A stretch of DNA of 64,000 bases, taken from the NCBI RefSeq assembly GCF_017347085.1, contig NZ_JADPSA010000016.1:1-64000 (forward strand). The letters run 5' to 3'. A program made the position numbers and the translations under genes. This DNA comes from Nesterenkonia sp. E16_10 (GTDB lineage Bacteria; Actinomycetota; Actinomycetes; Actinomycetales; Micrococcaceae). Below, piece after piece: positions 9,502-31,130 of the stretch (within the stretch, counting starts at the first letter, position 1; every line of letters starts with the position of its first letter). The notes under the pieces were generated by a model. That model had not been told where the DNA came from. It was given only the letters and a program-made list of their open reading frames with translations, and did no database searches.

Positions 9502-9504
9502 TCG

Positions 9505-11288: not shown

Positions 11289-11352
11289 TTACTCAAGTGT
11301 CGTGGCCGAATATGTCGATGCGTATGTGGCTCGAGGTCTTCACTCTCCAAGT

Positions 11353-11393
11353 GCGGAGCTGGGTGAGCCCGAAGCGGACTCACCCAGCTCCGC
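11353..11393 (-). terminator. Terminator of the coiled-coil membrane protein gene
   Basis: GCGGAGCTGGGTGAG pairs perfectly with CTCACCCAGCTCCGC over 15 bp with an 11-base loop. It lies directly downstream of the minus-strand stop at 11405. Confidence 0.75.
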
Positions 11394-11404
11394 GAAAGAG
11401 ATGG

Positions 11405-12091: not shown

Positions 12092-12223
12092 GGTGTCCCT
12101 TTCCCTCGGGCGATCCACTGGAGATCCAGTGGGCTGACGCAGAGAACAAAGCGTGTTCTGCGGCAGTGAAGATCACCCTAGATGTGACCACGGACATGAA
12201 TCTCGGGTCACCAAGAACACCAT

Positions 12224-13285: not shown

Positions 13286-13461
13286 GTGTGGTGCTCCTTC
13301 TCTATCCCCGTGCGGACCCAGGCCCGTATCGAGCAGGCATCCATGGGAGGCGTCAATCCGAGGGTAACGCTCGCGATGCCCCAGCAGAATGTCGTTGTCC
13401 TCAACGCTGGTCTGTGATGGACTCGAAGAAGACAGTTCCGACCACCAGAATGGAGGCTGAC

Positions 13462-14484: not shown

Positions 14485-14528
14485 AACTTCACAGAGGTAC
14501 TGCACGACACAGGAAAGAGGGACAGATC

Positions 14529-15419: not shown

Positions 15420-15472
15420 CATACTTGCCCTGAGACTGCCCGCCGGCAAGCCGCCCGCCACAAGGAGACACC

Positions 15473-16531: not shown

Positions 16532-16553
16532 GACTCCGCTGACCGGGTGGCGC

Positions 16554-17083
16554 CTAGGGGAGGGGCCGCCCGGCGTCCGGGTTCGGGTGGTGGGCCTCGA
16601 GCGGGTACTCCCATTTGGGGCTTCGCCTGTCGAGGCGCGTGGGCAACAACATCAGGATCAGGGCGGCGAGGGGGCCGATCACAGGGACAAGGGCCACGAA
16701 GTACAAAGGCACAGGGAATCCGGCATCGTGCAGCCTGCGCCAGCTCAGGGCGAGCATCGGGAGAAACGTGACTAGGCTCCAGACGAGGGTCGCCAGCGAG
16801 CTGGCCAGGACCAGTCCCTCGACGTTCCCGGTGCCCTGAGTCAGGTCGAAGTATCCAAGAGCAGGGCCACATGGGCGCAGGTAGGGAGCGAGATCAGCCC
16901 ACCCACGACGGTCACGAGGAGCCGAACCCACCAGTATTGGCTGCGCAAGGCGTAACCCTTGAAGTGCGCATACCTCCCGAAGAAGCGCCCAACGGCTTGG
17001 CCCAGCGTGGCACCGTAGAGCGGCTCATTCAACGGGGGGACCGAGGTGGTGCTCTGTGATGGATCGGTACTGCAACTGCTCAC
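16554..17083 (-). pseudogene. DUF805 membrane protein gene broken by a frameshift
   Basis: The N-terminal half (frame read from a GTG at 17083) gives GATLGQAVGRFFGRYAHFKG and the YWWVRLL helix typical of DUF805, then runs out of frame and stops at 16841. The C-terminal half continues in another frame through TLVWSLVTFLPMLALSWRRL, HDAGF and a final helix to the stop at 16554. The two halves together make one ordinary DUF805 protein. Both frames are open between 16841 and 16931, so the shift lies there. No slippery heptamer is evident, so I call it a pseudogene or sequence error rather than programmed frameshifting. Function of DUF805 is unknown. Confidence 0.72.
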
Positions 17084-17250
17084 GATTGACTCACTCCATA
17101 CGGATGCGTGTGCCTAGTCAGCTTTCAGGACTCACTGACGTTTGCAGGCCTGCTACGCGGCCGGCAGGACCAGACCGGTTCCACGCGCGAGCACCGCAAT
17201 GGTCTTGGATGGGCGGTAGGCCGTCTCCCAAGGACAATCCAAGTCACGTG

Positions 17251-18303
17251 TCAGTTAGCCACCATGCGAACTATGTCTTCGAGCTGAGCGGTGAGTTGCT
17301 CCCACGGCTGCCCCAGGTCCAGTGTGCGAGCGCCGATCCGGCTTCCCTGGACCACAACATCTAGGTCAGGCTGTCGAGGTGCTTCGGTGCGTGCGTACAG
17401 CAGTAGGCCACTGACTGAGCCGTCGCGGTCCACATCGGCATTCTTCACGTACGTCACTAGTTGGTACAGATTGGCTGAGTGCACGGTCGCTTTGCCCCAC
17501 CTGCCGGTCTGCATTGACTTGCTGTAGTACTTCGCGTCGATGATGAGTGTGTGTCCTCCCCGCAGAAGAGTGACGTCGGTGCGCATCGCAGGGAGCTGAG
17601 CGGCTCCTAGGGCGCTCGCGTAGTCGTAGTCCCAGGCAATGGTGGACGCGTTCGGTGAAAGGTCTGGGTAGTGGACCTTGAAGTACTCAAGCAAGAACCG
17701 CTCGAACAAACTACTCATCACTTCATCCGAGACCCACGAGGTGAGCTTGCTGGTTCCAGCATCTTGTGTCGGTAGAAGCCCTCGGACGACCAGTTCGCAA
17801 ACGCCGAGGAGCATTCGGTACGGCGCGTTGGCGCGATGGTAGGTGAGGGCGTCCCAGCGGATCGATGTCGGTGCAACCAAAGTCACTGCATCCAGATAAG
17901 GCAATAGTCGGCGCAGGGCGTCCTTTCGAGCGCTGTAGACATCGCCGTGGCGGATCAGGAGCACTATGACCGACTTCAGCGCTTGGTTATGCGGCGTGTC
18001 GGGGTCGTACTCGTCGAACTCACACACGAGCTTTCCTCGGAGCGTCGAGCGGGTGGCGACGGTCCGAGTGATGTCGATGCGGCTTCGAACGGTGGCGAGC
18101 TCCTCCCTGTGAAGAAGGTAGTCGCGGTGGAGACCGCGTTTGACCTGGGTGCCGACACCACGAATCAGCATCTCTGCGAACAAATCGTGGAGGTGTTCGA
18201 AAGACTCGGTCGCTACGCGATCGTTGCCTACGTTGCGGAGCCCCCGAAAAGCGTAGGCCATCATCACATAGACATTTCGTATCGCAATGGTCCGGGCCGT
18301 CAT
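17251..18303 (-). CDS. mcrC: McrC, nuclease subunit of the type IV McrBC restriction system
   Basis: 350 residues. The N-terminal part (TIAIRNVYVMMAYAFRGL) matches the McrC family and pairs it with McrB. The PD-(D/E)xK nuclease site is visible as MRTDVTLL followed by LIIDAKYY, with Asp256 and Lys258 of the DxK element, then a QLVTYV helix. McrC cuts DNA when bound to the McrB ring. The ATG at 18303 overlaps the mcrB stop as ATGA, a coupled start. Codon use is less GC-rich than in the flanks, which fits acquired defence DNA. It has no adjacent methyltransferase, as expected for type IV. Confidence 0.9.
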   Translation of the reverse strand: MTARTIAIRNVYVMMAYAFRGLRNVGNDRVATESFEHLHDLFAEMLIRGVGTQVKRGLHRDYLLHREELATVRSRIDITRTVATRSTLRGKLVCEFDEYDPDTPHNQALKSVIVLLIRHGDVYSARKDALRRLLPYLDAVTLVAPTSIRWDALTYHRANAPYRMLLGVCELVVRGLLPTQDAGTSKLTSWVSDEVMSSLFERFLLEYFKVHYPDLSPNASTIAWDYDYASALGAAQLPAMRTDVTLLRGGHTLIIDAKYYSKSMQTGRWGKATVHSANLYQLVTYVKNADVDRDGSVSGLLLYARTEAPRQPDLDVVVQGSRIGARTLDLGQPWEQLTAQLEDIVRMVAN

Positions 18304-20543
18304 GCAACAGCCGCCCGGAGTCTGGCCGACCACTCCTCGGACTTGGCTGGTTCATCAAACCAATACTCATGGATCAGAGGTATGAGCTCATCGTCGACGA
18401 CAGACAGCAGCGACGCCTCGTTGGCATCACCGTTCGAAGGCCGAGCCAGGAAACTGTGTCCGATGGCGAAACCTTGGCCTAGCGCTGGGTCGTCGGCAAT
18501 GGCCTGATTCAGGCTCGTGACAACCTTGACGAGATCATCGAGAGTCGGGTTGTCCGCCTCCTGAAGCCAGCGGATGAATCCGGCTGATTCGAACCCTGGA
18601 GTCATCTCGAAGAAACCGAAGCGACGGCGCAGGGCGTAGTCGAGTACGGCAAGACCACGGTCCGCAGTGTTCATCATGCCAATAATGTGGACGTTGGGTG
18701 GAACGGAGAATGTTTCGTTCTTGTACAGGAGGCGCAACTCTTGTCCGCGTTTGTCGGCTTCGATCAGCATGAGCAGCTCACCGAAGATCTTCGAGATGTT
18801 GCCACGGTTGATTTCGTCAATGATGAAGAAGTAAGGACGGTCGCTGTCGTCGGCTCTGGCTTCGTCGCAGAACCGGTAGAACGGACCTTCCGAGAGGGTG
18901 AAGCCACCGGTCTCGGTGGGTCGGTACCCCATCATGAAGTCCTCATACGAGTAGCTCTGATGGAATTGGACAGTCTGCACTCTGCTCGGGTCCTTCGCGC
19001 CCATCATGGAGTACGCCAGGCGCTTCGCGGCGAAGGTCTTTCCTACACCGGGCGGGCCGGCCAGGATCACATTCTTCTTCCGGGTGAGCAGCGATGCCAG
19101 TCGGTCGTAGCGCTCTTCCGAAAGGTATACCTCACTGAGGAATGCCTCCTTGCCGTAGGAGCTAGGACGTTCTGGAGTAACTGGTAGTCCTGGTTCTGCT
19201 TCGTCAGTAACGAGCGCCTCGAGCTTCTCAACATAGTCGTGGTAAGTCGTGATGTCGGTAAGCGTCTTGGTGGCGGCATCCCCGGGGTGCTCCCACGACC
19301 CCACATGGGTCCATCTAACCGACCGGACGTGATGGTACGTGGCGCGGTCCGGCTCGAACCTGGCGTCCGAGGTGACCTCGCCACGACCAACAATTTCCCG
19401 TCGTCCACGCTTGGCGTAGACGATGTCGCCTACCGAGATCTCATTCTGAAACTGCCATGCTGCCAGGACGTCGTTCCTGAGCGATACGCCGGTCCCCTCA
19501 ACGTCAAGTGCCCGACGTATGGCATCGCGGCTAGAGTAGGTAGCGAGGTCGTCAAGATCGTCCCAGCCGATCGCCATGATGTCCTTAGACGCGAACTCGT
19601 CCCACTTCAATGCCTGAGGCCCAGGAGAATAGAGCCAGTAGTGGCGTGGGCGTGGCTCGACCAAGTCTGCGCTCTGAGAGACCGGAGTGGCGGATTGGTC
19701 GAGAGATCCGTCCCAGAGCTCTGCCACCCCTGGCGTCCAGAACTGGAAGGGTCCCTCAACCTCGCGAGCGATCACAGCGCGGATCGACAGAAGGTCATGA
19801 TCGATTGCAGCAGCGGTGTTGCCCGTCGTCCCGCCAATCTTGCTGGCTAGACGATCGCGGATTTTTGCTTTCATCGGTTTCGAAGTGATTGGTTCGAAGG
19901 TGTCTGGCCGGGCGAAATACTCCAGCATGTGGCGGAAGTCGGATCGATCGCTTCCAGAGTTGAGCATGACTCGCTGCAACTCCCAGGGATCTGTCCGGGC
20001 TGCCTCACGCTCGTCGTCCGACAGGTCATTCCAGTGGCGCACGAAAGTTGATGCCCAGATAAGGTGCCGCCACAGCGCCCCGTTGTACCAGGAGCCGGGT
20101 TCGAAACCTGCAGTCCCCGCAGGTCGAGACAACCAGGTCGACATTGGCTCCGGGATCGTGGTGGGGGAGTCAAGCTGTGATAGGACCCGCTCGACATGTG
20201 TTCGGCGGGTTTCAGGGCGGGCGGAACGCAGCGGATGTTCCCGGAGAAAGACGAGTTCGGCAGCGAGCAGGACGACTTCCCGGGCCGCGCCCTCGAGTTG
20301 TTGATCGAGCTTCTGCCACTGGCCTTGGTCCGTCCCGATGATGGGGTTGTCTCCGATTCTGGATCGAAGGTCCTCGGCCGACTCGGCGGTCCAGATCGTT
20401 GCCGACGTGTCGATCACGGATTTACCGTCTCCGAGCATGTGAGCGATGATCTCGCCTGCCTCATTGGCGATCGCCATGTCAGGAGCTGGTCGCGACGCTT
20501 CGAGTTCAGCGTCCGCATAGGTGTTTAGGGCGTCGTTGATCAT
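18300..20543 (-). CDS. mcrB: McrB, AAA+ GTPase subunit of the type IV McrBC restriction system
   Basis: 747 residues. Residues 1-290 are an N-terminal region I cannot assign. About residues 300-420 (HYWLYSPGPQALKWDEF...DIVYAKRGRREIVGRGEV) read as a PUA/EVE-like module, the type of domain that recognises modified bases. The AAA+ domain has GPPGVGKT at 496-503, Walker B FFIIDEINRGN and the McrB signature MNTADRG at 624-630. McrB forms a GTP-driven ring that recognises modified DNA and activates McrC. There is no clear Shine-Dalgarno; CAGAAT six bases before the ATG could be a -10 of a leaderless message. The sensor domain suggests the target is modified cytosine, but the exact base is not predictable. 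Confidence 0.9.
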   Translation of the reverse strand: MINDALNTYADAELEASRPAPDMAIANEAGEIIAHMLGDGKSVIDTSATIWTAESAEDLRSRIGDNPIIGTDQGQWQKLDQQLEGAAREVVLLAAELVFLREHPLRSARPETRRTHVERVLSQLDSPTTIPEPMSTWLSRPAGTAGFEPGSWYNGALWRHLIWASTFVRHWNDLSDDEREAARTDPWELQRVMLNSGSDRSDFRHMLEYFARPDTFEPITSKPMKAKIRDRLASKIGGTTGNTAAAIDHDLLSIRAVIAREVEGPFQFWTPGVAELWDGSLDQSATPVSQSADLVEPRPRHYWLYSPGPQALKWDEFASKDIMAIGWDDLDDLATYSSRDAIRRALDVEGTGVSLRNDVLAAWQFQNEISVGDIVYAKRGRREIVGRGEVTSDARFEPDRATYHHVRSVRWTHVGSWEHPGDAATKTLTDITTYHDYVEKLEALVTDEAEPGLPVTPERPSSYGKEAFLSEVYLSEERYDRLASLLTRKKNVILAGPPGVGKTFAAKRLAYSMMGAKDPSRVQTVQFHQSYSYEDFMMGYRPTETGGFTLSEGPFYRFCDEARADDSDRPYFFIIDEINRGNISKIFGELLMLIEADKRGQELRLLYKNETFSVPPNVHIIGMMNTADRGLAVLDYALRRRFGFFEMTPGFESAGFIRWLQEADNPTLDDLVKVVTSLNQAIADDPALGQGFAIGHSFLARPSNGDANEASLLSVVDDELIPLIHEYWFDEPAKSEEWSARLRAAVA

Positions 20544-20856
20544 GTCTTAATTCTGCCCTTATTCTGCCCGTGCAGTCCACGCTTCTCTCTGCAGAAATTA
20601 CTTCAGGTCATGGGGTCAGCGAGTTTTCGATTCCAACTTGTCTTAGCGCGATGGAAAATGAGGCTGGGAATCGTTCTCTCATTCTTGGGTGAGCCGACCA
20701 CTTTGGAGGTCCCGCAGGGTCCGGACATGGTCGTGCTGGACGCTGGACGCTGGACGCTGGACGCTGGGACACTCGAGAACCTGGTGCCAGGTAAGCGGTC
20801 GCGGGATGATGTGGACACCGAAGACGCCGAGGCTAAAATCACTGGACGAACTCTGA
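20544..20856. other. Gene-free stretch between mcrB and the hsdR remnant
   Basis: No open frame here has coding character. It holds the mcrB promoter region near 20550, a heptanucleotide tandem repeat at 20736-20763 and, beyond it, sequence with stops in the frame of the downstream hsdR stub. It is best read as decayed sequence of a former restriction locus. Confidence 0.55.
20736..20763. repeat. Heptanucleotide tandem repeat, CTGGACG x 4
   Basis: Four perfect head-to-tail copies of CTGGACG, followed by a fifth degraded copy (CTGGGAC). The unit length is not a multiple of three and no gene covers it. It may vary in copy number by slippage. Confidence 0.85.
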
Positions 20857-21165
20857 ACCACCGGGGCGCGCTGCCTGGTCGCGGAGAAAGCGGCCGAGGA
20901 GGTCCCCCGACAGGAGCAGGGCGAGGCGGCGTTGACCGAGCTGTTCGAGGCCTCCAGGTTATAGGGTATGCCCATCAGCGCGGTCAAAGTGGTGGCTGAC
21001 ATCGACGATGTGGTGCGCGGTGTCCGGCTTACCGGGTGGCAAAAGACGAAGTCTGGGGATCGGCAGGTCCTCAAGGAAATGTGCAAGGCCCATTGCGTCA
21101 AACACAAGAACGGCGGCAAAGGCATCTTTACCCAAGCCCACGGCTACATCCGCGAGGAGTACTGA
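20857..21165 (+). pseudogene. hsdR: C-terminal remnant of type I restriction subunit HsdR
   Basis: In one frame the sequence reads ARCLVAEKAAEEVPRQEQ...LTELFEASRL, a TAG at 20962-20964, then AVKVVADIDDVVRGVRLTGW, ending GYIREEY. The pattern LxELFE...VVxDIDxIVxxVRxxGWQ...REV...AYxYIRxYY is the extreme C-terminus of type I restriction R subunits. The helicase and nuclease parts are absent, there is an internal stop, and an in-frame TGA stands at 20854. It is therefore a decayed stub. It adjoins the McrBC genes, marking the area as a restriction island with turnover. Confidence 0.7.
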
Positions 21166-21255
21166 TGTCGGACCGTCCCATAGAATAAGTGGATTCTGGT
21201 GAGAGTATTTAAAAGAGCTTTAAAATGACAAAATAGCTACAAGTATAGTATTTAG

Positions 21256-21273
21256 CGACGATCTTTCTCGTCG
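21256..21273. promoter_or_regulatory. Inverted repeat upstream of the lysR gene
   Basis: CGACGA and TCGTCG flank a six-base spacer, 28 bases before the TTG start of the LysR gene. The surrounding 100 bases are AT-rich and probably hold its promoter. It could be an autoregulatory site or a short hairpin in the leader. Confidence 0.35.
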
Positions 21274-21300
21274 TGGCACTAACCGCGAAGAGGTGTTGGC

Positions 21301-22173
21301 TTGGATCTGAACCTGATTCGAGTATTTGTAGCCGTCCACGAAGAGGGCTCAGTGACTGCCGCCGCAGAGCGTCTTCACTTATCCCAGCCGACTGTTACCC
21401 AGGCGTTGAATCGCTTGCGTCGAGAGACCGGTGAAGAGCTTTTTATTCGTGTCGGTCGTGGTATCGAGCCCACTCGCTCTGCGACTGAGCTCTATGCAAA
21501 GGTCGGCCACATTCCGGGCGCCGTGGACGCTGCGGTGCGTGCTGTATCGCACTTCGACCCAGCAACTACGGTAGAGACCTTCAGAATGGCATTGACGGAT
21601 CTTGGCCAAACGATATTCCTGCCTACGCTGGTCCCTGCTCTCACTCGGGAAGCCCCACACGCGACCCTCGAGGTCTTGAACCTAGACGTCGATAGCGCTT
21701 CCGAAGACTTAGCTGCCGGGCGAATTGATCTGGCCGTTGCTTCGACGGTCCTGCCGGGCAAGCTCCGCAGCTCGGTCGTCCGCCCTGACCTGTATTGCTG
21801 TGTTGCAAGAAAGGGTCGGTTCGGGAGCGGGAGTCCTACCTTCGAACAGCTGTCGCAATTACCAAGAGTGGTTGCCCGCAACACTTTGGGGCACACGCTC
21901 GTGGAATCGCTGTTGCCAGAACCGGTGGAGGGATCGGTGTATCTGCCCGCCTTCTCGGCGATTCCAGCGATCGTCAGTGCATCCGACCTCATAGCCTTCG
22001 TGCCACACGCAATTATTGGCGCGTGGAGCTCTCTCTGGGACATAGAAACGTGGCCATTGCCGCAAGGCACATTTACCGCACTGATTCGAGCGCATACGGC
22101 TTCCCATCCAACCTCCGCAGCCAATGCTTGGTTCACGCAGTGGGCCACCACCAGGATGCAAAGAACTGCCTGA
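21301..22173 (+). CDS. LysR-type transcriptional regulator of the catabolic block
   Basis: 290 residues with the classic N-terminal winged helix-turn-helix (LNLIRVFVAVHEEGSVTAAAERLHLSQPTVTQAL, given here in two parts: LNLIRVFVAVHEEGSVTAAA and ERLHLSQPTVTQAL) and a C-terminal effector domain. The start is a TTG, supported by AGAGGTG upstream and by the family's usual beginning (MDLNLIR). It is transcribed in the same direction as the aldehyde dehydrogenase gene 169 bases downstream. A perfect inverted repeat lies between them at the position expected for LysR activation. The likely inducer is the substrate or an intermediate of the pathway; this is inference. Confidence 0.9.
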   Translation: MDLNLIRVFVAVHEEGSVTAAAERLHLSQPTVTQALNRLRRETGEELFIRVGRGIEPTRSATELYAKVGHIPGAVDAAVRAVSHFDPATTVETFRMALTDLGQTIFLPTLVPALTREAPHATLEVLNLDVDSASEDLAAGRIDLAVASTVLPGKLRSSVVRPDLYCCVARKGRFGSGSPTFEQLSQLPRVVARNTLGHTLVESLLPEPVEGSVYLPAFSAIPAIVSASDLIAFVPHAIIGAWSSLWDIETWPLPQGTFTALIRAHTASHPTSAANAWFTQWATTRMQRTA

Positions 22174-22211
22174 ACGACACGGAAAGCACAGGAAGCTCCA
22201 GGTCGACTCCA

Positions 22212-22232
22212 CCTATAGTCCTCGTCTATAGG
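22212..22232. promoter_or_regulatory. Candidate LysR operator
   Basis: CCTATAG-N7-CTATAGG is a perfect inverted repeat and contains a T-N11-A core (22216/22228). Its centre is about 64 bases before the transcription start predicted from the promoter at 22251-22279, which is the normal LysR recognition position. Confidence 0.55.
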
Positions 22233-22250
22233 TAAATCGCTAATCATTTA

Positions 22251-22279
22251 TTGGTTTTGTGTGATCTGCGTCGCATACG
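22251..22279 (+). promoter_or_regulatory. Candidate weak promoter of the catabolic operon
   Basis: TTGGTT and CATACG are separated by exactly 17 bases. Both hexamers are poor matches to consensus, as expected for a promoter needing an activator. The predicted start is near 22286, about 57 bases before the aldehyde dehydrogenase ATG. Confidence 0.4.
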
Positions 22280-22342
22280 GTGGTGATGCACCCAGCATAG
22301 GCAGCGTCTTGAGGGACGCAGCGACATACCAGGAGTCACAGC

Positions 22343-23839
22343 ATGAGCTCGAATATCGCCATCCGCGATGCCACCACTGCGGTCGTTGAAGGACTCAAAG
22401 CCGGTTGTTTCATCGGGGGAGAGTGGAGGGACGGTGCCTCCGAACGTGCCATCAGTATCACTGTTGCAGTAGATGGTAGTGAGCTTCGAAGTTTCCCAGG
22501 AGCATCCACCGGTGACGTGGATGAAGCTTATGAAGCCGCAGCCCTCGCGCAACGGGAGTGGGCCAGTGTTCCCCCCGGTGAGCGGGCCATGGTCGTTGCA
22601 CGGGCCGCCGAGATCTTGGAACGTAGACGGTCCGAAATTACTAGCTTGCTCAGGATCGAGGCGGGCTCTTCGGCGCTCAAGGCGAACATTGAAGTGAGCT
22701 CCGCAATTGGCATCACACGAGAAGCGGCGACTTTCCCCAACCGTTCCCACGGAACTATTCAGCCTTCGGCTTTTCCTGGCAAAGAGAATCGCGTGTACCG
22801 CGAGCCGCGAGGCGTTATCGGTGTGATTTCTCCTTGGAACTTTCCCCTGCATCTGTCTATCCGCTCAGTTTCACCTGCTCTGGCACTCGGAAACGCTGTG
22901 GTGCTGAAGCCGGCCTCGGATACGACGGTATCGGGAGGTCTCATCGTTGCTGAGATCTTCGAGGAAGCCGGTCTCCCGGCAGGATTGCTGTCGGTCGTAG
23001 CCGGCGCTGGTTCTGAGATAGGAGACAGGATTGTGCAGCATCCTGTGCCGTCCATGATCTCCTTCACCGGTTCCACGCCTGTGGGTCAGCGGGTAGGTGC
23101 GCTGGCCGCCCAGGGCTACATGAAGCACGTGGCATTAGAGCTCGGGGGTAACGCGCCACTAGTCGTGTTGGACGACGCGGACCTTGACGGCGCCGTCAAT
23201 GGTGCGTTGATGGCTAAGTTCCTTCATCAAGGTCAAATCTGTATGGCGGCAAACCGAGTCATTGTAGATGCGAAGGTGTACGACGAGTTCGTTGAAAAGT
23301 TTGCGGCGCGGGTTAGTGAGCTAGTGGTGGGCGACACAACAGATGAATCAGTTCTCCTTGGCCCCATTATCAACGATGCACAGACCTCATCGGTTGTTCA
23401 GCTCATAGATTCGGCGCGGAGACAAGGCGCTCGGGAAGTCTATGGGGGCCACGTGGATGGTCGAACGGTCGGCCCTCACGTATTTGCAGACGTGACAGAG
23501 GATATGCAAATTGCCGTCGAAGAGATCTTTGGCCCGGTGATTGGAATTATTAAGGCAGAAAACGAAGATTCGGCCCTGAAGATGGCAAACAATACCGAGT
23601 TCGGACTTTCCTCAGCAGTGTTCACACGCGATATCGAACGAGGCGTGAGGTTCGCTCGAAGTGTCAAAGCTGGAATGACTCACGTCAATGATTCGACAGT
23701 CAACGACGAGCCGAACATCATGTTCGGCGGCGAAAAAAATTCAGGAATAGGACGCTTCAATGGCGATCAGGCGATTGATGATTTTACGACCCTGCATTGG
23801 ATCGGCGTCCGCTCCGCAATGGGTCCAGTGCCCTTTTAG
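22343..23839 (+). CDS. Aldehyde dehydrogenase, benzaldehyde-dehydrogenase-like (island copy)
   Basis: 498 residues; oxidises an aldehyde to the acid with NAD(P)+. Catalytic Glu266 is in LELGG and nucleophile Cys300 in GQICMAAN, 34 residues apart. NAD-site motifs SPWNFPL, KPASDTTVSGG and SFTGSTPVGQ are present, and the protein ends in a PVPF tail like the aromatic (XylC/vanillin) subfamily and like the core copy at 9731-11215. AGGAG lies upstream of the ATG. The next gene encodes benzoylformate decarboxylase, whose product aldehyde would be the natural substrate, so benzaldehyde to benzoate is the proposed step. Lower GC than the core copy suggests separate acquisition. Confidence 0.88.
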   Translation: MSSNIAIRDATTAVVEGLKAGCFIGGEWRDGASERAISITVAVDGSELRSFPGASTGDVDEAYEAAALAQREWASVPPGERAMVVARAAEILERRRSEITSLLRIEAGSSALKANIEVSSAIGITREAATFPNRSHGTIQPSAFPGKENRVYREPRGVIGVISPWNFPLHLSIRSVSPALALGNAVVLKPASDTTVSGGLIVAEIFEEAGLPAGLLSVVAGAGSEIGDRIVQHPVPSMISFTGSTPVGQRVGALAAQGYMKHVALELGGNAPLVVLDDADLDGAVNGALMAKFLHQGQICMAANRVIVDAKVYDEFVEKFAARVSELVVGDTTDESVLLGPIINDAQTSSVVQLIDSARRQGAREVYGGHVDGRTVGPHVFADVTEDMQIAVEEIFGPVIGIIKAENEDSALKMANNTEFGLSSAVFTRDIERGVRFARSVKAGMTHVNDSTVNDEPNIMFGGEKNSGIGRFNGDQAIDDFTTLHWIGVRSAMGPVPF

Positions 23840-23951
23840 CGGACCGCGGCCGCCGTTGGTGATCTCACAGCGCGCCGCCCGTGGCTAATTCAGTCTTGGG
23901 CATCGAAAGACTGGTCCAGTTGTGCGACAAGATAGGGCGTGTAAATAGTAT

Positions 23952-25550
23952 ATGAGCGAAAAAACTGTCCTCGAGTCAAGTCTGAATGTGCTTGAATCTC
24001 ACGGAATTACCACCATATTTGGCAATCCAGGATCGAATGAAATACCATTTCTAGCAGGGCTAAGTAGCAAATTTAATTTCGTTCTAGGTTTGCACGAACA
24101 AGTAGTCGTGGGGCTAGCCGAGGGGTACGCACGTGCGACCGGTAAGCCTGCCCTCGTTAACCTGCACGCTGCCTCTGGGTCCGGTAATGCGATGGGGGCT
24201 TTGACCAACGCTAAATATGGACACACGCCAATGGTTATTTTGGCAGGTCAGCAGGTTCGTCGCACCGTGGGTCAGGAGTCGATGCTCGCCAATGTGGATG
24301 CTTCGATTCTGCCTGCCCCGCTCGTTAAATATTCCCACGAGCCACTGTCTGCCGCAGACGTTCCTCGCGCCATATCCCAGGCCGTACTAGAGACTTCGAC
24401 CCAACCCTGTGGCCCCGTTTACCTATCGGTTCCGCTTGATGACTGGGCAGAGCCTGCGCTTGAGGACGATGCACTTTTGACTGCCAGGAGGGTAACAACC
24501 GGCCAAGCGCTGAGCGAACAACAGCTTGAGGGCCTGGTATCGGTCCTAGATGCTGCGGAGAGTCCTGCGTTGGTCGTTGGGCCCCAGTTAGACGCGGCCT
24601 CAGTGAACGACGTGCGCGTCCATCACGCCGCAATGGAGCTAGCTGAGAAGCTAGATGCTTCTGTATACGTCGCCCCGTCACCTTCTCGAGGACCGTTTCC
24701 AACGACACACCCGAACTTCAAGGGAGTGATCGTTCCCGGTATCGAGTCAGTACGGGACAGCCTAGCGGGGCACGATGTCGTCCTAGTGCTGGGGGCGGCC
24801 ATGTTCAGATACCACCGATGGGAGCCAAGTAACTATCTCGAGTCCGGGACGCAGATGCTTCACGTCACGCAAGACGCACGAGAAGCCACACGGGCCTCGT
24901 TCGGTAGCTCGGTGGTCACGGATGTGGCTTGGGCGACCAAGTCGTTGGCTTCGAAAGTCACAGATCGAGGTGCTCGTCGGGGTGATCGGGGCTCACGGCA
25001 GTTACCCGCGGCAAGAACTTCTCCTGAAGGAATGACCGGCACCGAGATACTTGAGGTACTCAACGCTCATGTGAATGAATCCGTGTGCTATGTCAACGAG
25101 ACCACGACTCTGGATCTGGAGTACCTCGAACGGATAGCGATCGAACGCCCGGGGATGTATCACTTTCCGGCTTCGGGAGGGCTCGGTTTCGGGCTTCCCG
25201 TGGCGGTGGGGATGGCTCTCGGCGACCCCTCAAGGACGATCATTGCCACAGTCGGCGATGGCTCCTTCAACTACGGAGTCACTGCGCTCTATACGGCAGC
25301 GAAACATCAGACTCGAACAATCTTTGTGGTCGTCAACAATTCTGGGTATGGCGCACTCGCTGGTTTCGCTGAGCGGATGGGCTCACCTGACGTGCCCGGA
25401 TTGCATCTCGACGGGATCGATTTCGTGTCTATTGCTGAGGGCTATGGAGTTCCGGGCAAGCGGGTCTCCACCCGCGAGCAGTTTGAGGCCGCGTACTTGG
25501 AGGCTCTGCGCTCTTCTGGCCCGCTACTTCTCGACGTACAAGTCGTCTAG
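23952..25550 (+). CDS. mdlC: Benzoylformate decarboxylase-like ThDP-dependent enzyme
   Basis: 532 residues; decarboxylates an aromatic 2-keto acid to the aldehyde. Compared from memory with Pseudomonas putida benzoylformate decarboxylase, all four active-site residues are kept: Ser28 in GNPGSNE, Glu49 in LHEQ, His72 in NLHAASG and His288 in FRYHRWEP (Ser26, Glu47, His70, His281 there). The ThDP motif is GDGSFNYG to VVVNN. KYSHEP, GPVYLSVP and PGIESV also align. It sits between the aldehyde dehydrogenase and the TRAP genes. The first 200 bases are very AT-rich for this genome (26 G+C of 60 from 24001). A different 2-keto acid substrate cannot be excluded. Confidence 0.88.
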   Translation: MSEKTVLESSLNVLESHGITTIFGNPGSNEIPFLAGLSSKFNFVLGLHEQVVVGLAEGYARATGKPALVNLHAASGSGNAMGALTNAKYGHTPMVILAGQQVRRTVGQESMLANVDASILPAPLVKYSHEPLSAADVPRAISQAVLETSTQPCGPVYLSVPLDDWAEPALEDDALLTARRVTTGQALSEQQLEGLVSVLDAAESPALVVGPQLDAASVNDVRVHHAAMELAEKLDASVYVAPSPSRGPFPTTHPNFKGVIVPGIESVRDSLAGHDVVLVLGAAMFRYHRWEPSNYLESGTQMLHVTQDAREATRASFGSSVVTDVAWATKSLASKVTDRGARRGDRGSRQLPAARTSPEGMTGTEILEVLNAHVNESVCYVNETTTLDLEYLERIAIERPGMYHFPASGGLGFGLPVAVGMALGDPSRTIIATVGDGSFNYGVTALYTAAKHQTRTIFVVVNNSGYGALAGFAERMGSPDVPGLHLDGIDFVSIAEGYGVPGKRVSTREQFEAAYLEALRSSGPLLLDVQVV

Positions 25551-25630
25551 AAGCGTCGCAGTCCCGGGTTGCCCGCCGTTGCTGCCCTCCACAATCATCT
25601 CAAAGTTAGATTACGCATCTTAGGAGAATC

Positions 25631-26749
25631 ATGTCGTTAAAAAACATTAAGAGTGCCCCTAGGGCCCGTGGGGCTCAGGTTGCCGCCGGAGCAGCGGTTC
25701 TAGCTTTGGGGCTCACCGCCTGCGGTGGGGCCAACAGCGGCGACGAGAGTGCAGTGGAATTGAACGTGGCTTCATGGGCTACTCCCGATAGCGTCTCGGA
25801 GAGGATGGCGGAATGGTGGTACGACGAGATCGAACAGCGTAGTGATGGCCAGATCACGTTCAATATCGCCGCAGCCGACTCACTCTGCAGCGCATCTGAA
25901 ATCCCGGAGTGTGTTCGCGACGGACGCGCAGACGTTGGCCAGACCATCACGGATTACTCGTCTCAGCTCTTCCCTCAGGCGACCATATCGAGTATTCCGT
26001 TCCTCAATCCCAACAGTGAGGCTGTCACGTTGGCGGTTTATGAATTGAGCACTGAGCATGACGGAGCAGCGCAACTGTGGGAGGAGAACGATTTGCATCC
26101 AATTGCTCATGTGCCTCCCGGCCGGATGCTCCTAGGAGGTCAGGACGACCTGTCCTCTATTGATGAACTCGAAGGCCTGCGACTGCGAATGTCGGGCCAG
26201 TATGCCCAGCAGGCAGTAGACGCAGCAGGCGCAAACTCAGTGACGCTAACAGCGCCGGAAACCTATGAGGGCCTGGAGCGAGGAGTGGCCGACGCTGCCG
26301 GCTTTCCCTTGGACGGCACCGTTGCCTATCAGTTGAAAGACATTCTTCCGGAATGGACGGACCCAGGCATTGGAACGTACACCACGATCGGGATGTGGAT
26401 GAATGCCGGCGTCTACAGCGATCTCTCAGAGGAACACCGTGCAGTGGTCGACGAAGTCACAGAGGAATACAACGGAGAGCATGCTCAGCGCATCTACGAC
26501 GAGGTCACCCTCGAGCAGTGTGACGAACTCCTGGAGACTATCGGCGATTTGAAGCAGTGGGACGAAGCCGATACCCAGCGCTGGAACGACGAACTGGGCG
26601 ACACCCTGGAACGACAGTGGGTTGAAGACGCGGAGAGCAATGGTCTCGAAGACGCCGAGGGATACCTCACCACCTACAAGGAGAAGCTTGCCTCCTACGA
26701 GGGTGAGGTTCGTGAAGACCCGACGGTGGTCTGCGCCGAACGCAGCTAA
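25631..26749 (+). CDS. dctP: TRAP transporter substrate-binding lipoprotein (DctP family)
   Basis: 372 residues. A lipoprotein signal ends in the lipobox LTAC, so mature Cys is near residue 32, anchoring it outside the membrane. The mature part has the DctP fold: VASWATPDSVSERMAEWWYDEIEQRSDGQ at the start (a standard family opening), and an arginine in the LRLRMSG segment that normally binds the ligand carboxylate. TAGGAG precedes the ATG. It is the first of three TRAP genes and should capture an organic acid for the permeases DctQ and DctM. The ligand is inferred to be an aromatic 2-hydroxy or 2-keto acid from the neighbouring enzymes. Confidence 0.88.
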   Translation: MSLKNIKSAPRARGAQVAAGAAVLALGLTACGGANSGDESAVELNVASWATPDSVSERMAEWWYDEIEQRSDGQITFNIAAADSLCSASEIPECVRDGRADVGQTITDYSSQLFPQATISSIPFLNPNSEAVTLAVYELSTEHDGAAQLWEENDLHPIAHVPPGRMLLGGQDDLSSIDELEGLRLRMSGQYAQQAVDAAGANSVTLTAPETYEGLERGVADAAGFPLDGTVAYQLKDILPEWTDPGIGTYTTIGMWMNAGVYSDLSEEHRAVVDEVTEEYNGEHAQRIYDEVTLEQCDELLETIGDLKQWDEADTQRWNDELGDTLERQWVEDAESNGLEDAEGYLTTYKEKLASYEGEVREDPTVVCAERS

Positions 26750-26826
26750 CCTAACCGGTCCCTCAACTTCGAGTCGGTGGTGGGCGCCGTGTAGGGCGCC
26801 CACCACCGAAGAACCTAGGACATGCC

Positions 26827-27453
26827 ATGTCTTTGAACCAACCTAGCAAGTTATCCAGTCTTCTTCGTCGAGGCACCTTGAGACTGTCGGCGCCCCTCGG
26901 GATACTCGCATCGACGGCGACTGTCGCGATCATGGTGGCGGTGACCGTCGATGTTCTCGCTAGGAATGCGTTGGGCAGCTCTGTCCCAGGCTTATTGGAG
27001 ATGAGCGAGAGTGCCCTCGTCGCCACCGTCTTCTTGGGTCTTGCCTATACCGGCACTACCAATTCACACGTTTCCGTGGACCTATTAACTGAAAAGCTCC
27101 CCCGTCGTATGGCTCGGAAGATCGCGGGAGTTGTCTGGTTGCTGGGATCCCTCATGGTCACATGGTTCATCTACGCAAGCTTCGAACGAGCAATGGAGAG
27201 TACAGCGTCAGGCGAGATTACCGTTGGCCTGATGGACTGGCCCCTCTGGCCCGCGCGGTGGCTCATCGTTATTGGCTACGTTGCTTTTCTGCTGGTAGCA
27301 CTGGTCAACACGTACTTGTCTTTCCGTAACGAACTGCTGCTGGGCGAAGAAAATGACTCAAATCATCTATCTATAGACGAAGAGAATAGTACTGAAGAGA
27401 ATGCAGAAAATGTTTCTAAAGATCGTCCTAGCCAAGGGGAGGTAAAAGCATGA
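26827..27453 (+). CDS. dctQ: TRAP transporter small permease (DctQ family)
   Basis: 208 residues with four predicted membrane helices: around residues 20-45, 58-78 (ESALVATVFLGLAYTG), 92-115 (GVVWLLGSLMVTWFIYASF) and 138-160. The sequence LLEMSESALVATVFLGLAYT with the NSHVSVDLL loop is typical of DctQ. The C-terminal ~40 residues are acidic and Ser/Asn/Glu-rich and probably cytoplasmic. It overlaps the dctM start by four bases (ATGA), so translation is coupled. It is the small partner of the large permease. Confidence 0.87.
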   Translation: MSLNQPSKLSSLLRRGTLRLSAPLGILASTATVAIMVAVTVDVLARNALGSSVPGLLEMSESALVATVFLGLAYTGTTNSHVSVDLLTEKLPRRMARKIAGVVWLLGSLMVTWFIYASFERAMESTASGEITVGLMDWPLWPARWLIVIGYVAFLLVALVNTYLSFRNELLLGEENDSNHLSIDEENSTEENAENVSKDRPSQGEVKA

Positions 27454-28808
27454 GTGTCAGCTTGGTAGTACTCCTCGTTATTGCTATCTTAGTTGGATTG
27501 CTTTTAACTCGCATGCCAGTGTGGATTGCACTGGCGATCTCAGGCAGCGTTGGCCTCCTGGTCCTTCGGGACACGACGTTTGTAACGCGAACTCTGGCTT
27601 CGACGTCCTTCGAGCAGACTTCGACCTTTAGTCTGACCATTATTCCCATGTTCATTCTGCTCGGGATCTTTGCCGTCAGAGCTAGAATCGCGGAACAGGT
27701 TTTCACGGTGGCGCGGCGTGCGATCCGGAAACTGCCTGGAGGGTTGGGGATCGCGACGGTGGCGGCCTGCGCGGGCTTCGCCGCCGTCTCAGGGTCCAGC
27801 ATCGGTACTGCCGCCACGATGTCGAAACTGTCGATTGGAGAAATGCGCAAGGCCGGATACCCGGTGAGCCTCGCCGGCGCTCTGGTCGCTGTGGCCGGAA
27901 CATTGGGGGCAATGATTCCTCCAAGCCTCTTCCTGGTGCTCTATGCGATTCTCACCGGCGAGTCGATTGGCAGAATGTTGGCTGCAGGCATAGTTCCCGG
28001 TGTCCTCTCGGCCCTTTCGTACGCGATGTACATCCTGATCAAAACTAGGAAAATGACGCTGGTAACAGCAGATAGTGCTTCGAGTGATCTAAGTGGTCGT
28101 TTGAACTCCGAAATTAGCGAGTCCAGGAGTCGACAGAAGAGCAGTTCGCTTCCGTGGCGGGGCGTGTTTCGACTAGCGATCATTTTCGCGATCATTATGG
28201 GTGGTATATATTCAGGAATTTTCACCGCAACGGAATCAGCCGCCATCGGGGCAACCTTTGCACTGTTTATGGTTGTGCTCGAATACCGGCGGGATGGGCT
28301 TCGAGAGATCGGGGCTCAGCTCGGAGAGGCTCTGAAGGAGACCGCAAAGACTACGAGTATGGTGTTCGCCATCATCGTCGGTTCGGGAATCCTCTCACTG
28401 TTCTTCGTGGTGGCTCGAGTGCCACAGTCAGTGGCTAACTCACTCACGTCGCTGGAACTCCCTGATTGGTTGATCTTGGCGCTCTTGCTCGCACTACTGA
28501 TTCCACTGGGTATGGCCTTGGAGTCGATCTCGATCTTGGTCATCACGGTTCCGCTGATCTATCCCGTAGCCACAGAGATGGGCTTCGATGGAATCTGGCT
28601 AGGAATTCTCATAGTCAAATTGATTGAAATTGGGATGGTCACACCGCCCGTAGGGATCAACTGTTTTGTCGTCGCAGGCGCTGCGAAAATAAGAACATCT
28701 GATGTTTTTAGGGGAGTTTGGCCGTTCGTTGTACTAGAGATCTTAATGATCGTGTTCTTCTTCGCATTTCCTGATGTCGTACTTTGGCTGCCATCACTTG
28801 TGGACTAA
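27450..28808 (+). CDS. dctM: TRAP transporter large permease (DctM family)
   Basis: 452 residues with about twelve hydrophobic helices. The ion-coupled carrier of the TRAP system is recognisable from RMPVWIALAISGSVGLL, GGLGIATVAACAGFAAVSGSS, AGTLGAMIPPSLFLVLY and VTPPVGINCFVVAGAAK, all core DctM motifs. A hydrophilic loop of about 35 residues near residues 200-240 is longer than usual. Together with DctPQ it forms a sodium- or proton-driven importer. The DUF3237 gene starts 137 bases downstream on the same strand. Confidence 0.9.
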   Translation: MSVSLVVLLVIAILVGLLLTRMPVWIALAISGSVGLLVLRDTTFVTRTLASTSFEQTSTFSLTIIPMFILLGIFAVRARIAEQVFTVARRAIRKLPGGLGIATVAACAGFAAVSGSSIGTAATMSKLSIGEMRKAGYPVSLAGALVAVAGTLGAMIPPSLFLVLYAILTGESIGRMLAAGIVPGVLSALSYAMYILIKTRKMTLVTADSASSDLSGRLNSEISESRSRQKSSSLPWRGVFRLAIIFAIIMGGIYSGIFTATESAAIGATFALFMVVLEYRRDGLREIGAQLGEALKETAKTTSMVFAIIVGSGILSLFFVVARVPQSVANSLTSLELPDWLILALLLALLIPLGMALESISILVITVPLIYPVATEMGFDGIWLGILIVKLIEIGMVTPPVGINCFVVAGAAKIRTSDVFRGVWPFVVLEILMIVFFFAFPDVVLWLPSLVD

Positions 28809-28945
28809 TTGCAGTGCGACTGCTGAGGCGTCGAGTCGCGTGGCAGCTTCGCCCGTCACCACTGAGAACAAGTTCTTCTAGAGTGGAACACCAGCAGGAA
28901 AAATGTCGTTCCTTACGGGTTAGCAATCGAAAGAGATTATCCGCA

Positions 28946-29419
28946 ATGTCAGAGAATGTCCCGACCGTGCCGGAATTAGAGTTCCTCTGCCGGTTCGAAA
29001 TCCTTGTAGGCCAGCCTATCGAAGTCGGAACTACCCATGCCGGCGGGCGACGAGTGATCCCAATTCTTGGGGGTAAGGCAACCGGCCCAAAGCTTAGTGG
29101 GAGTATTCTCCCGGGCGGAGCAGACTTCCAACTTCTTCGCTCTGAAACGGTCACCGACCTCGATGCTCGGTACGTGATCGAGGCTGACAATGGGGAACGA
29201 ATTTATGTCACGAACCAGGCACTCCGAAGCGGTTCGGCGGATGACATATCCTCCTTGGTCAGAGGAGAGCACGTTCCGGCAGAACGCATCTATTTTCGCT
29301 GTTCGCCACGCTTCGAGGTTGCGGGGCGGGAGCTGGCATGGCTTGAGTCCACAGTGGTGGTCGGTTCAGGCGCCAGGAACCCTGGCGCGGTCGTTATAGA
29401 TCTCTGGGCGCTCCGCTAA
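28946..29419 (+). CDS. DUF3237 family protein
   Basis: 157 residues, cytosolic, matching the DUF3237 family: PELEFLCRFEILVG, then GGRRVIPILGG, GSILPGGADFQLLR, LDARYVIEADNGERIYVTNQ, and a late YFRCSPRFEV. The family forms small beta-barrel proteins without an agreed reaction, and members occur in aromatic and terpenoid catabolic clusters. The ATG at 28946 is chosen because conservation begins there; the ribosome site (AAAGAGA) is weak. Location between the TRAP permease and the PanE-like gene suggests a pathway role, such as handling an intermediate or ester/lactone form, which is speculative. Confidence 0.78.
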   Translation: MSENVPTVPELEFLCRFEILVGQPIEVGTTHAGGRRVIPILGGKATGPKLSGSILPGGADFQLLRSETVTDLDARYVIEADNGERIYVTNQALRSGSADDISSLVRGEHVPAERIYFRCSPRFEVAGRELAWLESTVVVGSGARNPGAVVIDLWALR

Positions 29420-29569
29420 CAGTTGGAAGAGGGGCCTCTCTGGCGGCCTACTCAACATGGCCTGCGGATTGTAATTGATTATCTATTTCCCGAGATGATG
29501 AATTTATCAGGTATTCGGGTGTTACACGTGTCGTCTATGGCCGCTCTACACTCATCTGGAGGAACTTCA

Positions 29570-30478
29570 GTGCGAATCGCGATTGTCGGCGCAGGCGCCA
29601 TGGGTCAGTTATTTGGTGCCAAACTTACGGCGTGTGACAACGACGTAGTCCTCATCGACACCTCGGAACCTACGATTAGCGCATTGAACCAGAGTGGAGT
29701 AACAGTACAGACTCCAGTCTCTTGCATTCAGACGTCAGTGGATGCTGCGCTGGCCATGGACGTGAAAGAGCCGGTCGAGTTGCTCATGATTTTCACCAAG
29801 GGGTGTCACACCAGGGCGGCCGTCTCTTCAGTACGTCACCTGATTCGCGACTACACAATTGGGTTAACCCTGCAAAACGGCTTGGGTAACGAGGAAGCCC
29901 TCTTGAAGCTCCTGGGCCCCGGGCGCACTCTGGTCGGTGTGACGGACTTTCCCGCGAACAGACTGGGGGAGACCCTGATCGGTTCTGCAGACGGCCACGT
30001 AACCCTCGGAGACACGTTGCCGGGCCAAGGCATCTCGCCAGCCGCCGAGACGGTGGCGACAGCGCTAAGTGACGCCGGATTGAATGCAAGCGCCCATATA
30101 GAGGTCCGCGTGCCAATCTGGGAGAAATTGATTTTCAACGCGGTCGCGAACACCATTGGTGGCGCAACCGGACTTACGGTCGGCGCTACAGGCACACGGG
30201 AACCCTCGCGGCGGCTGGTGGACTCCGTGTTCGAAGAGGCTGTCTCGGTGGCACGCGCTAGTGGCATAGCCGTCAACAGCGACAAGGTTTGGTCCTCCCT
30301 TGAGAGGGCTTTTGTCCGGCACGCTGCGCATAAGACCTCAATGACGACGGATGTCGAGGAAGGTCGTCGAACTGAGGTCGACACGATTGGTGGTGCAATT
30401 GTAGCCGCGGGTCACCAGATCGGGTTGGCTACTCCGGTTCTGTCGGCCCTCTGCGACGTTGTCAGGTCACGGACTTAG
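29570..30478 (+). CDS. Ketopantoate reductase (PanE/ApbA) family 2-hydroxy-acid dehydrogenase
   Basis: 302 residues, starting at the GTG at 29570 with GGAGGA upstream. The N-terminal Rossmann motif is IAIVGAGAMGQLFGAKL (GxGxxG), and the C-terminal helical domain has WEKLIFNAVANTIGGATG with the catalytic Lys and Asn of the family. Ketopantoate reductases act in pantothenate synthesis, but some paralogues are D-mandelate or other D-2-hydroxy-acid dehydrogenases (for example the Enterococcus enzyme). Its place at the end of a benzoylformate decarboxylase operon, with no pantothenate genes near, favours interconversion of a mandelate-type hydroxy acid and its keto acid. A hairpin follows. Confidence 0.8.
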   Translation: MRIAIVGAGAMGQLFGAKLTACDNDVVLIDTSEPTISALNQSGVTVQTPVSCIQTSVDAALAMDVKEPVELLMIFTKGCHTRAAVSSVRHLIRDYTIGLTLQNGLGNEEALLKLLGPGRTLVGVTDFPANRLGETLIGSADGHVTLGDTLPGQGISPAAETVATALSDAGLNASAHIEVRVPIWEKLIFNAVANTIGGATGLTVGATGTREPSRRLVDSVFEEAVSVARASGIAVNSDKVWSSLERAFVRHAAHKTSMTTDVEEGRRTEVDTIGGAIVAAGHQIGLATPVLSALCDVVRSRT

Positions 30479-30491
30479 AGGCAAAGTCGAG

Positions 30492-30514
30492 CGACATCCA
30501 AGGCATGGGTGTCG
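30492..30514 (+). terminator. Candidate terminator of the catabolic operon
   Basis: CGACATCC and GGGTGTCG pair over eight positions (one G-T) with a seven-base loop, 14 bases after the stop of the PanE-like gene. There is no T run. Confidence 0.45.
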
Positions 30515-30605
30515 ATGGGGAAGCGTCCTAGAAAGCAGTGCGTTCATCTGTGCCGGTAGTACATGATTGGAAGCGGAGCTGTGACACTCAATTTCGGAAA
30601 TGAGA

Positions 30606-30635
30606 AGGGGCGAGGAACCGAAGTTCCCCGCCCCT
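30606..30635 (-). terminator. Terminator of the PPOX gene
   Basis: AGGGGCGAGGAAC and GTTCCCCGCCCCT form a 13-bp stem with one mismatch and a CGAA loop. It is downstream of the minus-strand stop at 30654. Confidence 0.75.
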
Positions 30636-30653
30636 ATTCAAAATCTGAGCCGC

Positions 30654-31130
30654 TTACAGCTCCACGCGCCCCTGGTCGCCCATGTTCGGGGTCTCCGAGG
30701 AGAGCGAAGCCTTCGCCATCTTGACCAGTGCCGCAGCCTTGCCCGGGCCCTCCCAGTACTGGGCGGTCTCCGGGGTCACCTCAATGAGCACCGCGTTGGG
30801 ATCCTCAGGGCCGCCCTCGAAGTAGGCCTTCGGGCCCAGGTCCCACAGCTCCTTCTTGCGCTCGAGATCATCGATGACCTGGGCGCTACCGGCGATGGAG
30901 ACCCAGGTGTGTGAATCCACGAAGCCCAGGTTGACCTCGCCCTCACCGATGATGTCCTCGACCTTGTCCGAGTTCAGTGGGGTGAAGAACCAGAACTTGT
31001 GCTGGTCGTCGATCTCGGTGACGCCCATCGGACGGGAGACGATCCGGTGGTTCTGATCCACGGTGGTGAACATGCAGGTGCCGATGCTGTTCAGCTTCTT
31101 GACGAGCTCGTTGGCAGTCATATCAGTCAT
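30654..31130 (-). CDS. Pyridoxamine 5'-phosphate oxidase-related protein (general stress protein 26-like)
   Basis: A 158-residue FMN-binding split-barrel protein. It reads NSIGTCMFTTVDQNHRIVSR PMG at the start, then FWFFTPLNSDKVEDI, VNLGFVDSHTWVSIAGSAQV and a C-terminal AQYWEGPGKA segment, which is the arrangement of the Gsp26-like PPOX group. Such proteins bind flavins and are often stress-induced; an enzymatic role is not set. CAGGAG lies six bases upstream of the ATG at 31130. It is a single-gene unit with a strong terminator and marks the return to high-GC core DNA right of the catabolic block. Confidence 0.85.
   Translation of the reverse strand: MTDMTANELVKKLNSIGTCMFTTVDQNHRIVSRPMGVTEIDDQHKFWFFTPLNSDKVEDIIGEGEVNLGFVDSHTWVSIAGSAQVIDDLERKKELWDLGPKAYFEGGPEDPNAVLIEVTPETAQYWEGPGKAAALVKMAKASLSSETPNMGDQGRVEL

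Follow-up and report, generated by a model that had tools for sequence, protein, structure and literature searches.

A TRAP-linked decarboxylase cassette in Nesterenkonia sp. E16_10 with a predicted role in the catabolism of aromatic 2-hydroxy or 2-keto acids

The window analysed here is a stretch of 64,000 nucleotides from the actinobacterium Nesterenkonia sp. E16_10 (contig NZ_JADPSA010000016.1, positions 1 to 64,000). Between positions 21301 and 30478 it contains eight genes, all on the forward strand, which encode in order a LysR-type regulator, an aldehyde dehydrogenase, a benzoylformate decarboxylase (BFD), the DctP, DctQ and DctM subunits of a tripartite ATP-independent periplasmic (TRAP) transporter, a DUF3237 protein and a PanE-family oxidoreductase. 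This cassette raises the question of which acid it degrades and how it came to its present position. With moderate confidence, we read it as a horizontally acquired, LysR-controlled, TRAP-fed gene set that would convert an aromatic 2-hydroxy or 2-keto acid, most likely a 4-hydroxylated one, to an aryl carboxylate.

In the proposed pathway, the LysR protein would control the cassette and the lipoprotein-anchored TRAP transporter would import an aromatic 2-hydroxy or 2-keto acid. With NAD(P)+ as cofactor, the PanE-family enzyme would oxidize a D-2-hydroxy acid to the aryl-glyoxylate, BFD would decarboxylate the aryl-glyoxylate to the aryl aldehyde, and the aldehyde dehydrogenase would convert this to the aryl carboxylate. 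If the carboxylate is 4-hydroxybenzoate, a PobA-type gene product would pass it to protocatechuate 3,4-dioxygenase and the beta-ketoadipate route. From the gene families and their conserved residues we infer the substrate, the direction and stereochemistry of the PanE reaction and the regulation.

Enzymes and importer of the cassette

The original prediction, made from the sequence of this region, had described the gene set, its order, its single strand and its short gaps, and library scans and reading frames agree on all of these points (Table 1). The intergenic gaps are, in order, 169, 112, 80, 77, -4, 137 and 150 bp. These values follow correction of two starts: alignments place that of the DUF3237 gene at about 28946, and alignments together with an upstream GGAGGA place that of the PanE gene at a GTG at 29570.

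In the alignment to P. putida BFD, the four active-site residues claimed in the original prediction are all present, with S28, E49, H72 and H288 corresponding to the catalytic S26, E47, H70 and H281. Twenty of 31 compared positions are identical, and those kept include S26, E28, E47, H70, L110, H281, T377, F397, A460, L461 and F464 (P. putida numbering). L110, T377, F397, A460, L461 and F464 are presumably ring-pocket positions. The aldehyde dehydrogenase has a benzaldehyde dehydrogenase (3r64, 598 bits) as its best solved match, and scores 578-590 bits against solved 4-hydroxybenzaldehyde dehydrogenases (9jw2 590, 9jvs 584). Family scores and nearest solved relatives therefore bear out the claimed pairing of a decarboxylase with an aryl-aldehyde dehydrogenase, and the classification of the former as a putative arylglyoxylate-type decarboxylase is supported. 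Hydroxylated substrates have precedent among such enzymes. BFD of P. fluorescens Pf-5 is reported active on benzoylformate and 4-hydroxybenzoylformate (PMC7760541), that of R. jostii RHA1 is reported to decarboxylate 4-hydroxybenzoylformate (PMC9811514), and 4-hydroxyphenylglyoxylate is also given as a BFD substrate (PMC11288888).

All three TRAP subunits are present, and DctP has a lipobox (LTAC, residues 28-31). Among 54 matches of DctP to solved structures are 4mnc/4mni, which we take to be a Polaromonas TRAP binding protein solved with benzoylformate; the match reaches E 2.3e-6 with only 30 bits, and 21 of the 54 score higher. Arg186 of DctP, identified from alignment only as the conserved carboxylate-binding arginine, is invariant in nine of nine aligned homologues. 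An arginine of this kind makes DctP proteins selective for carboxylates (PMC4646407), and its invariance here is in line with carboxylate ligands. Together with the DctPQM family assignments, it supports the predicted import of an acid.

The PanE-family protein scores 118 bits against 8wl3, 97-99 bits against 3wfi, 3wfj and 5x20 (3wfi 99) and 52 bits against 1ks9. We take 3wfi, 3wfj and 5x20 to be Enterococcus D-mandelate dehydrogenase and 1ks9 to be E. coli ketopantoate reductase. In an alignment of BFD-linked PanEs, which omits L105 (stops at the coordinates used), K186, N190, N194 and E269 are invariant in 13 of 13 sequences; the K, N and E positions are presumably catalytic. A PanE gene is found no more than 10 kb from BFD in 14 of 80 named loci, including 9 of 16 Pseudomonas loci, and in none of 18 control stretches. 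These 80 loci were the best among 430 relatives, and several are cut by contig ends, so that neighbour counts in them are lower bounds. The controls amount to 0.27 Mb versus 1.57 Mb of loci, and the same density would give about two PanEs in them. The contrast is suggestive, and the case leans more on the repeated adjacency. An Enterococcus D-mandelate dehydrogenase is described as a member of the PanE/ketopantoate reductase family (PMC4230899), and PanE is likely the 2-hydroxyacid dehydrogenase of the cassette. The original prediction that the PanE-like enzyme supplies hydroxy-acid oxidation gains from this precedent and from the recurrence near BFD, but the control is small and the residue at position 80 differs from that of solved relatives.

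Table 1. Features of the cassette, its surroundings and the left flank (window coordinates)
Feature	Coordinates	Strand	Basis or remark
LysR-type regulator	21301..22173	+	Pfam HTH_1 and LysR_substrate; 55% identical LysR adjoins the same genes, in opposite orientation, in L017
Aryl-aldehyde dehydrogenase	22343..23839	+	Nearest solved chains 3r64, 9jw2/9jvs
BFD-type thiamine diphosphate enzyme	23952..25550	+	NF005485 604 bits, cut-off 493; 46% identity to P. putida BFD over 514 positions
DctP, TRAP solute-binding lipoprotein	25631..26749	+	Pfam DctP; NF037995 over cut-off; lipobox
DctQ, TRAP small permease	26827..27453	+	PF04290 79 bits
DctM, TRAP large permease	27450..28808	+	TIGR00786 301 bits, cut-off 268
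DUF3237 protein	28946..29419	+	PF11578 139 bits; 40% homologue beside BFD in L055
PanE/ketopantoate-reductase-family oxidoreductase, probable aryl-glycolate dehydrogenase	29570..30478	+	TIGR00745 212 bits, cut-off 141; ApbA and ApbA_C domains
Catabolic insert	~20657..30592	+	Difference between G020 and G022 comparisons; GC 56%, GC3 0.58-0.66
Variable segment between conserved flanks	17047..30592	.	Other DNA in its place in same-genus relatives
McrBC-type restriction cargo, neighbour outside the pathway	17215..20656	-	McrC 17251-18333, McrB 18300-20543
Polysaccharide deacetylase family	14529-15419		Left flank
PPK2 family	15473-16531		Left flank

Fate of the product and competing readings

In profile searches of the source genome, the two PF00775 matches are adjacent PcaG and PcaH (protocatechuate 3,4-dioxygenase); no other intradiol dioxygenase is found, and so no catechol 1,2-dioxygenase is detected. 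BenA reaches 60 bits versus a cut-off of 781. The sole Ring_hydroxyl_A protein resembles glycine betaine monooxygenase most closely and falls under that model's cut-off. BoxB has no match in six of six genomes, including the source genome. A PobA-type gene is located near pcaGH (G000:C11:22870-24120; L119:13853-15133) and scores 455 bits with NF006091 (cut-off 351), though it does not reach the stricter cut-off of TIGR02360, a result shared by 13 of 17 genomes. The match of this gene to the family model is split in two inside a single open frame, which suggests an insertion of about 30 residues. The 17-genome counts contain two other genomes with a TRAP and BFD set (that of L055 is outside them): Leucobacter G827 has only two adjacent PF00775 matches, G030 has four, and neither has BenA over cut-off.

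With BenA and BoxB undetected and with PcaGH and a PobA-type gene in place, mandelate fits less well than a 4-hydroxylated substrate. As far as tested, benzoate appears to be a dead end, and 4-hydroxybenzoate would be used; the natural substrate is probably 4-hydroxymandelate or 4-hydroxybenzoylformate. Benzoate was rejected as the preferred end product on the same BenA and BoxB results. The mandelate-type route of the original prediction holds as a kind of chemistry, but mandelate itself would end at benzoate, for which no route is detected; that prediction was right in kind and probably wrong in the ring. The block contains no racemase, and the route, described earlier as possibly complete, could therefore be so for one stereoisomer only.

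Several results weigh against the reading of a 4-hydroxylated substrate or against the enzyme roles on which it depends. The source genome is a draft (3.30 Mb, 51 contigs, 98.75% complete). All 17 genomes give PobA-type and PF00775 matches, and 16 of them have an adjacent PcaGH-like pair, so the presence of these genes is not specific. BenA is under cut-off in 12 of 17 genomes, which makes its absence common; two of these, G828 and G838, carry broken BenA-like pieces. The BoxB model is over cut-off in 0 of 14 control genomes, and the search is therefore one without a positive control. The searches for degradation enzymes covered BenA, BoxB, PobA-type and intradiol enzymes, leaving out extradiol dioxygenases and vanillate demethylase. 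In BFD, 11 of 31 compared positions differ from the P. putida enzyme, including L109M, T380D, C398P, R462A and W463G. In a quick tree of 99 BFD rows (88 different; L015 and L016 omitted as presumed duplicates, L001-L014 not included), the window BFD falls in an actinobacterial group of 49 rows with a support of 100, apart from the Pseudomonas and Rhodococcus rows. Within the 33 named loci of this group, neighbours are few (aldehyde dehydrogenase in 7, PanE in 3 and DctM in 2). Aldehyde dehydrogenase and PanE neighbours are missing from most members, and other substrates are therefore possible for the group. The PanE comparison relies on a small number of control stretches, drawn largely from a single genus. 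Position 80 is His in 13 of 13 aligned BFD-linked PanEs and Gln in 8wl3, 3wfi and 2ew2, and for this reason the specificity of D-mandelate dehydrogenase is not simply transferable.

The tree and the substitutions also speak for a different 2-keto acid decarboxylation pathway, in which the BFDs of this group would act on a new substrate, whether non-aryl or of another kind. The long stem of the BFD group, changes such as T380D, R462A and W463G, and the varied neighbours in Brevibacterium and Arthrobacter loci are all in line with such a shift. We nevertheless regard it as distinctly unlikely, given that the four catalytic residues, E28 and the six presumed ring-pocket residues are kept and that an aryl-aldehyde dehydrogenase adjoins BFD. 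A plain mandelate or benzoylformate route to benzoate, which would then be excreted, passed to other cells or used by an undetected benzoate pathway, agrees with the benzaldehyde dehydrogenase found as the best solved match and with the BFD family name and catalytic residues. This route is unlikely in view of the low BenA score, the undetected BoxB, the PcaGH pair as the only intradiol dioxygenase in the genome, and a Ring_hydroxyl_A protein that is closest to another enzyme.

Assimilation of benzoylformate as in the bzf system, with the keto acid imported directly by the TRAP transporter and PanE put to another use, such as reducing excess keto acid or ketopantoate, is somewhat unlikely. Pseudomonas sp. 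LLC-1, which has bzfRABCD, grows on benzoylformate and did not use (R,S)-mandelates (PMC7760541), and 7 of 16 Pseudomonas loci have no PanE match. Against this reading, PanE recurs near BFD in two phyla, and in Vreelandella glaciei (L113, described below) an FMN_dh gene lies directly 3' of BFD.

If the cassette acts on a 4-hydroxylated acid as proposed, PanE would add a new kind of entry enzyme to mandelate-type catabolism, the 'panE' gene in many BFD clusters would be accounted for, and the cassette would be a compact gene set for the uptake and use of hydroxymandelate. A wider proposal is put forward tentatively and with some doubt. PanEs with His80 may form a widespread class of catabolic D-aryl-glycolate dehydrogenases that open the benzoylformate route in Pseudomonas and actinobacteria. 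The TRAP-fed cassette would then be a self-contained, horizontally moving hydroxymandelate version, assembled separately from the Vreelandella TRAP-FMN_dh version.

Foreign composition and the insertion site

The G+C content of 21301-30478 is 56.4%, versus 67.5% in 1-16931 and 67.0% in 31219-64000. The G+C content at third codon positions (GC3) is 0.58-0.66 in the eight cassette genes and 0.77-0.92 in 17 measured flanking genes. Similarity to flank codon use is 0.26-0.38 in the cassette versus 0.54-0.79 in the flanking genes, with 16 of the same 17 genes as the reference, so that the flank values are partly self-compared. The McrBC genes are intermediate (GC3 0.69-0.71, codon-use similarity 0.41). 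McrC has a PF10117 McrBC domain (119 bits), and McrB scores 268 bits with the NCBIfam McrB model, under its cut-off of 637. The block is lower in G+C than its flanks and foreign in codon use, as had been predicted, but the low-G+C stretch is longer than claimed, beginning at about 17047 and taking in McrBC.

DNA homology to the same-genus genome G020 stops at 17046 and returns at 30593; in L134, L137 and L138 it returns at 30603-30605. Genome G022 has the same flanks, and the stretch between them contains McrBC at 89% DNA identity to window positions 17215-20656 and no match to any of the eight catabolic genes. Since McrBC alone is present there, the catabolic insert corresponds to about 20657-30592 and McrBC is a separate cargo; the G022 comparison led us to reject the whole low-G+C stretch as one unit. 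BFD has no match at E 1e-80 in 29 same-genus genomes, with a limited number of first-look candidates scored in each. Atypical composition and absence from close relatives, which are used to recognize genomic islands, are both found, and on this sequence evidence the cassette is acquired, foreign DNA. There is no tRNA in the window and no integrase or transposase among 11 scanned proteins of 17251-31130; att-type repeats were not searched for.

The same two flanks enclose a type IIG restriction enzyme and a PDC-M09B protein in G011 (L136), and a Schlafen-type helicase in G020 and G021 (L133, L135). Beside the right-hand flank, G016 (L134) has the same Schlafen-type helicase and G018 (L137) has BREX-type BrxC and PglX; in these two genomes the left flank is outside the fetched stretch or not found. 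Across the genus, the site beside PNPOx-like/LigD genes (L133-L138, L143) contains differing defence genes (BREX-type, type IIG, Schlafen-type helicase and McrBC). The site is a defence-gene hotspot, which here also took up a catabolic operon.

Some further features were noted around the cassette. A coding-like fragment interrupted by a stop lies between McrB and LysR (20857-21165). We presume some resemblance to the end of a type I restriction subunit, which is unproven; the fragment was rejected as a type I restriction remnant, since neither of its pieces has a Pfam match at E 0.01. A perfect 7-base tandem repeat (GCTGGAC, 4.7 copies, 20735-20767) lies within the catabolic insert, about 80 bases from its edge. 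In the left flank, assignment of 14529-15419 to Ku and of 15473-16531 to LigPol was rejected in favour of the families in Table 1. A second aldehyde dehydrogenase (9731-11215) has 91-96% counterparts in the same-genus loci L133 and L135. A 75% relative in G933 (L139:6-2013) adjoins PanE and is near opposed DctMQP, on a short contig with no BFD match.

Related loci and known systems

The original prediction knew of no described locus that pairs this set with a TRAP importer. No paper on a BFD-TRAP locus was found in the open-access literature, outside which most subscription papers lie, but G030, Leucobacter and Microbacterium share the pairing, and Vreelandella has it in a different form. The four TRAP-linked BFD rows do not form one clade in the tree. 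The same gene order is present in one other Micrococcaceae genome, G030 (L017), where LysR, aldehyde dehydrogenase, BFD, DctP, DctQ, DctM and PanE are 53-76% identical to the window proteins. There, LysR is reversed and DUF3237 has no match. An ISL3-family transposase adjoins this set. DctP matches at E 1e-70 occur in 11 of 395 same-family genomes, with at least 59% identity only in G000, G030 and G933, and a phylum-wide DctP search returned only the window itself (1 of 396); these surveys scored a limited number of first-look candidates per genome.

In the gene-context table, which omits L021-L033, other arrangements are found. Leucobacter sp. 7(1) (L063) has a rearranged set of LysR, BFD, DctPQM, aldehyde dehydrogenase and PanE. 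A flavin adenine dinucleotide-linked oxidase near this block (L063:6779-8365) could be a second hydroxyacid dehydrogenase. Microbacterium sp. G2-8 (L055) combines DUF3237 and BFD with opposed DctMQP, and Arthrobacter mangrovi (L039) and Sinomonas (L042) have aldehyde dehydrogenase, BFD and PanE without TRAP genes. In Vreelandella glaciei (L113:5892-16818), a divergent LysR faces DctQ, DctM, DctP, BFD, FMN_dh, MR/MLE and aldehyde dehydrogenase, and a BenE transporter gene in the opposite orientation comes next. Neither FMN_dh nor MR/MLE reaches any NCBIfam cut-off listed, and we infer their putative mandelate roles. This locus looks like a TRAP-fed mandelate cluster. In Vreelandella nanhaiensis (L085:6220-14536), BFD, aldehyde dehydrogenase and DctP are located among PcaDC-like (384 bits, cut-off 390) and PcaH-like genes, a gene set that links BFD to protocatechuate breakdown. 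One contig of G1098 (L141:1475-13384) has PanE, DctMQP, LysR, a major facilitator superfamily (MFS) transporter, a lactate/malate-type dehydrogenase and an IS110-type transposase, possibly a related pathway, and has no BFD match.

Among described clusters, bzfRABCD of Pseudomonas sp. LLC-1, also found in P. fluorescens Pf-5 and P. aeruginosa, comes closest; it shares with the cassette a LysR regulator, BFD, an acid transporter and an aryl-aldehyde dehydrogenase (PMC7760541). PanE and DUF3237 are not among its five named genes. The bzf cluster has an MFS transporter and an OprD porin, whereas the cassette has DctPQM instead; a Gram-positive organism would not be expected to have an OprD porin. 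The cassette is a bzf core in which the TRAP importer replaces MFS and OprD. The mdl pathway of P. putida shares the decarboxylase and benzaldehyde dehydrogenase steps. Its racemase and its (S)-mandelate dehydrogenase, which uses flavin mononucleotide (FMN), have no counterpart among the eight genes at 21301-30478; the rest of the genome was not searched for either enzyme.

In the 4-hydroxybenzoylformate decarboxylase/vdh pathway of R. jostii RHA1, an actinobacterial BFD turns hydroxylated substrates into aldehydes, which the aldehyde dehydrogenase beside it can accept, and the available part of that article does not mention a TRAP importer (PMC9811514). BFDs of the Rhodococcus loci in the tree are in another group than the window BFD, and RHA1's own enzyme is not in the tree. 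TarPQM and FcbT1-T3 are precedents for TRAP uptake of aromatic acids (PMC5812351, PMC4996985), but their substrates are lignin-derived aromatics and 4-chlorobenzoate, and their partner enzymes are unlike those of the cassette. Enterococcus D-mandelate dehydrogenase shares its fold family and likely reaction with the cassette PanE (PMC4230899), which differs from it in having His80 for Gln and a catabolic gene context. The chemistry of the cassette is known from these systems, and its importer and first enzyme are an unusual combination.

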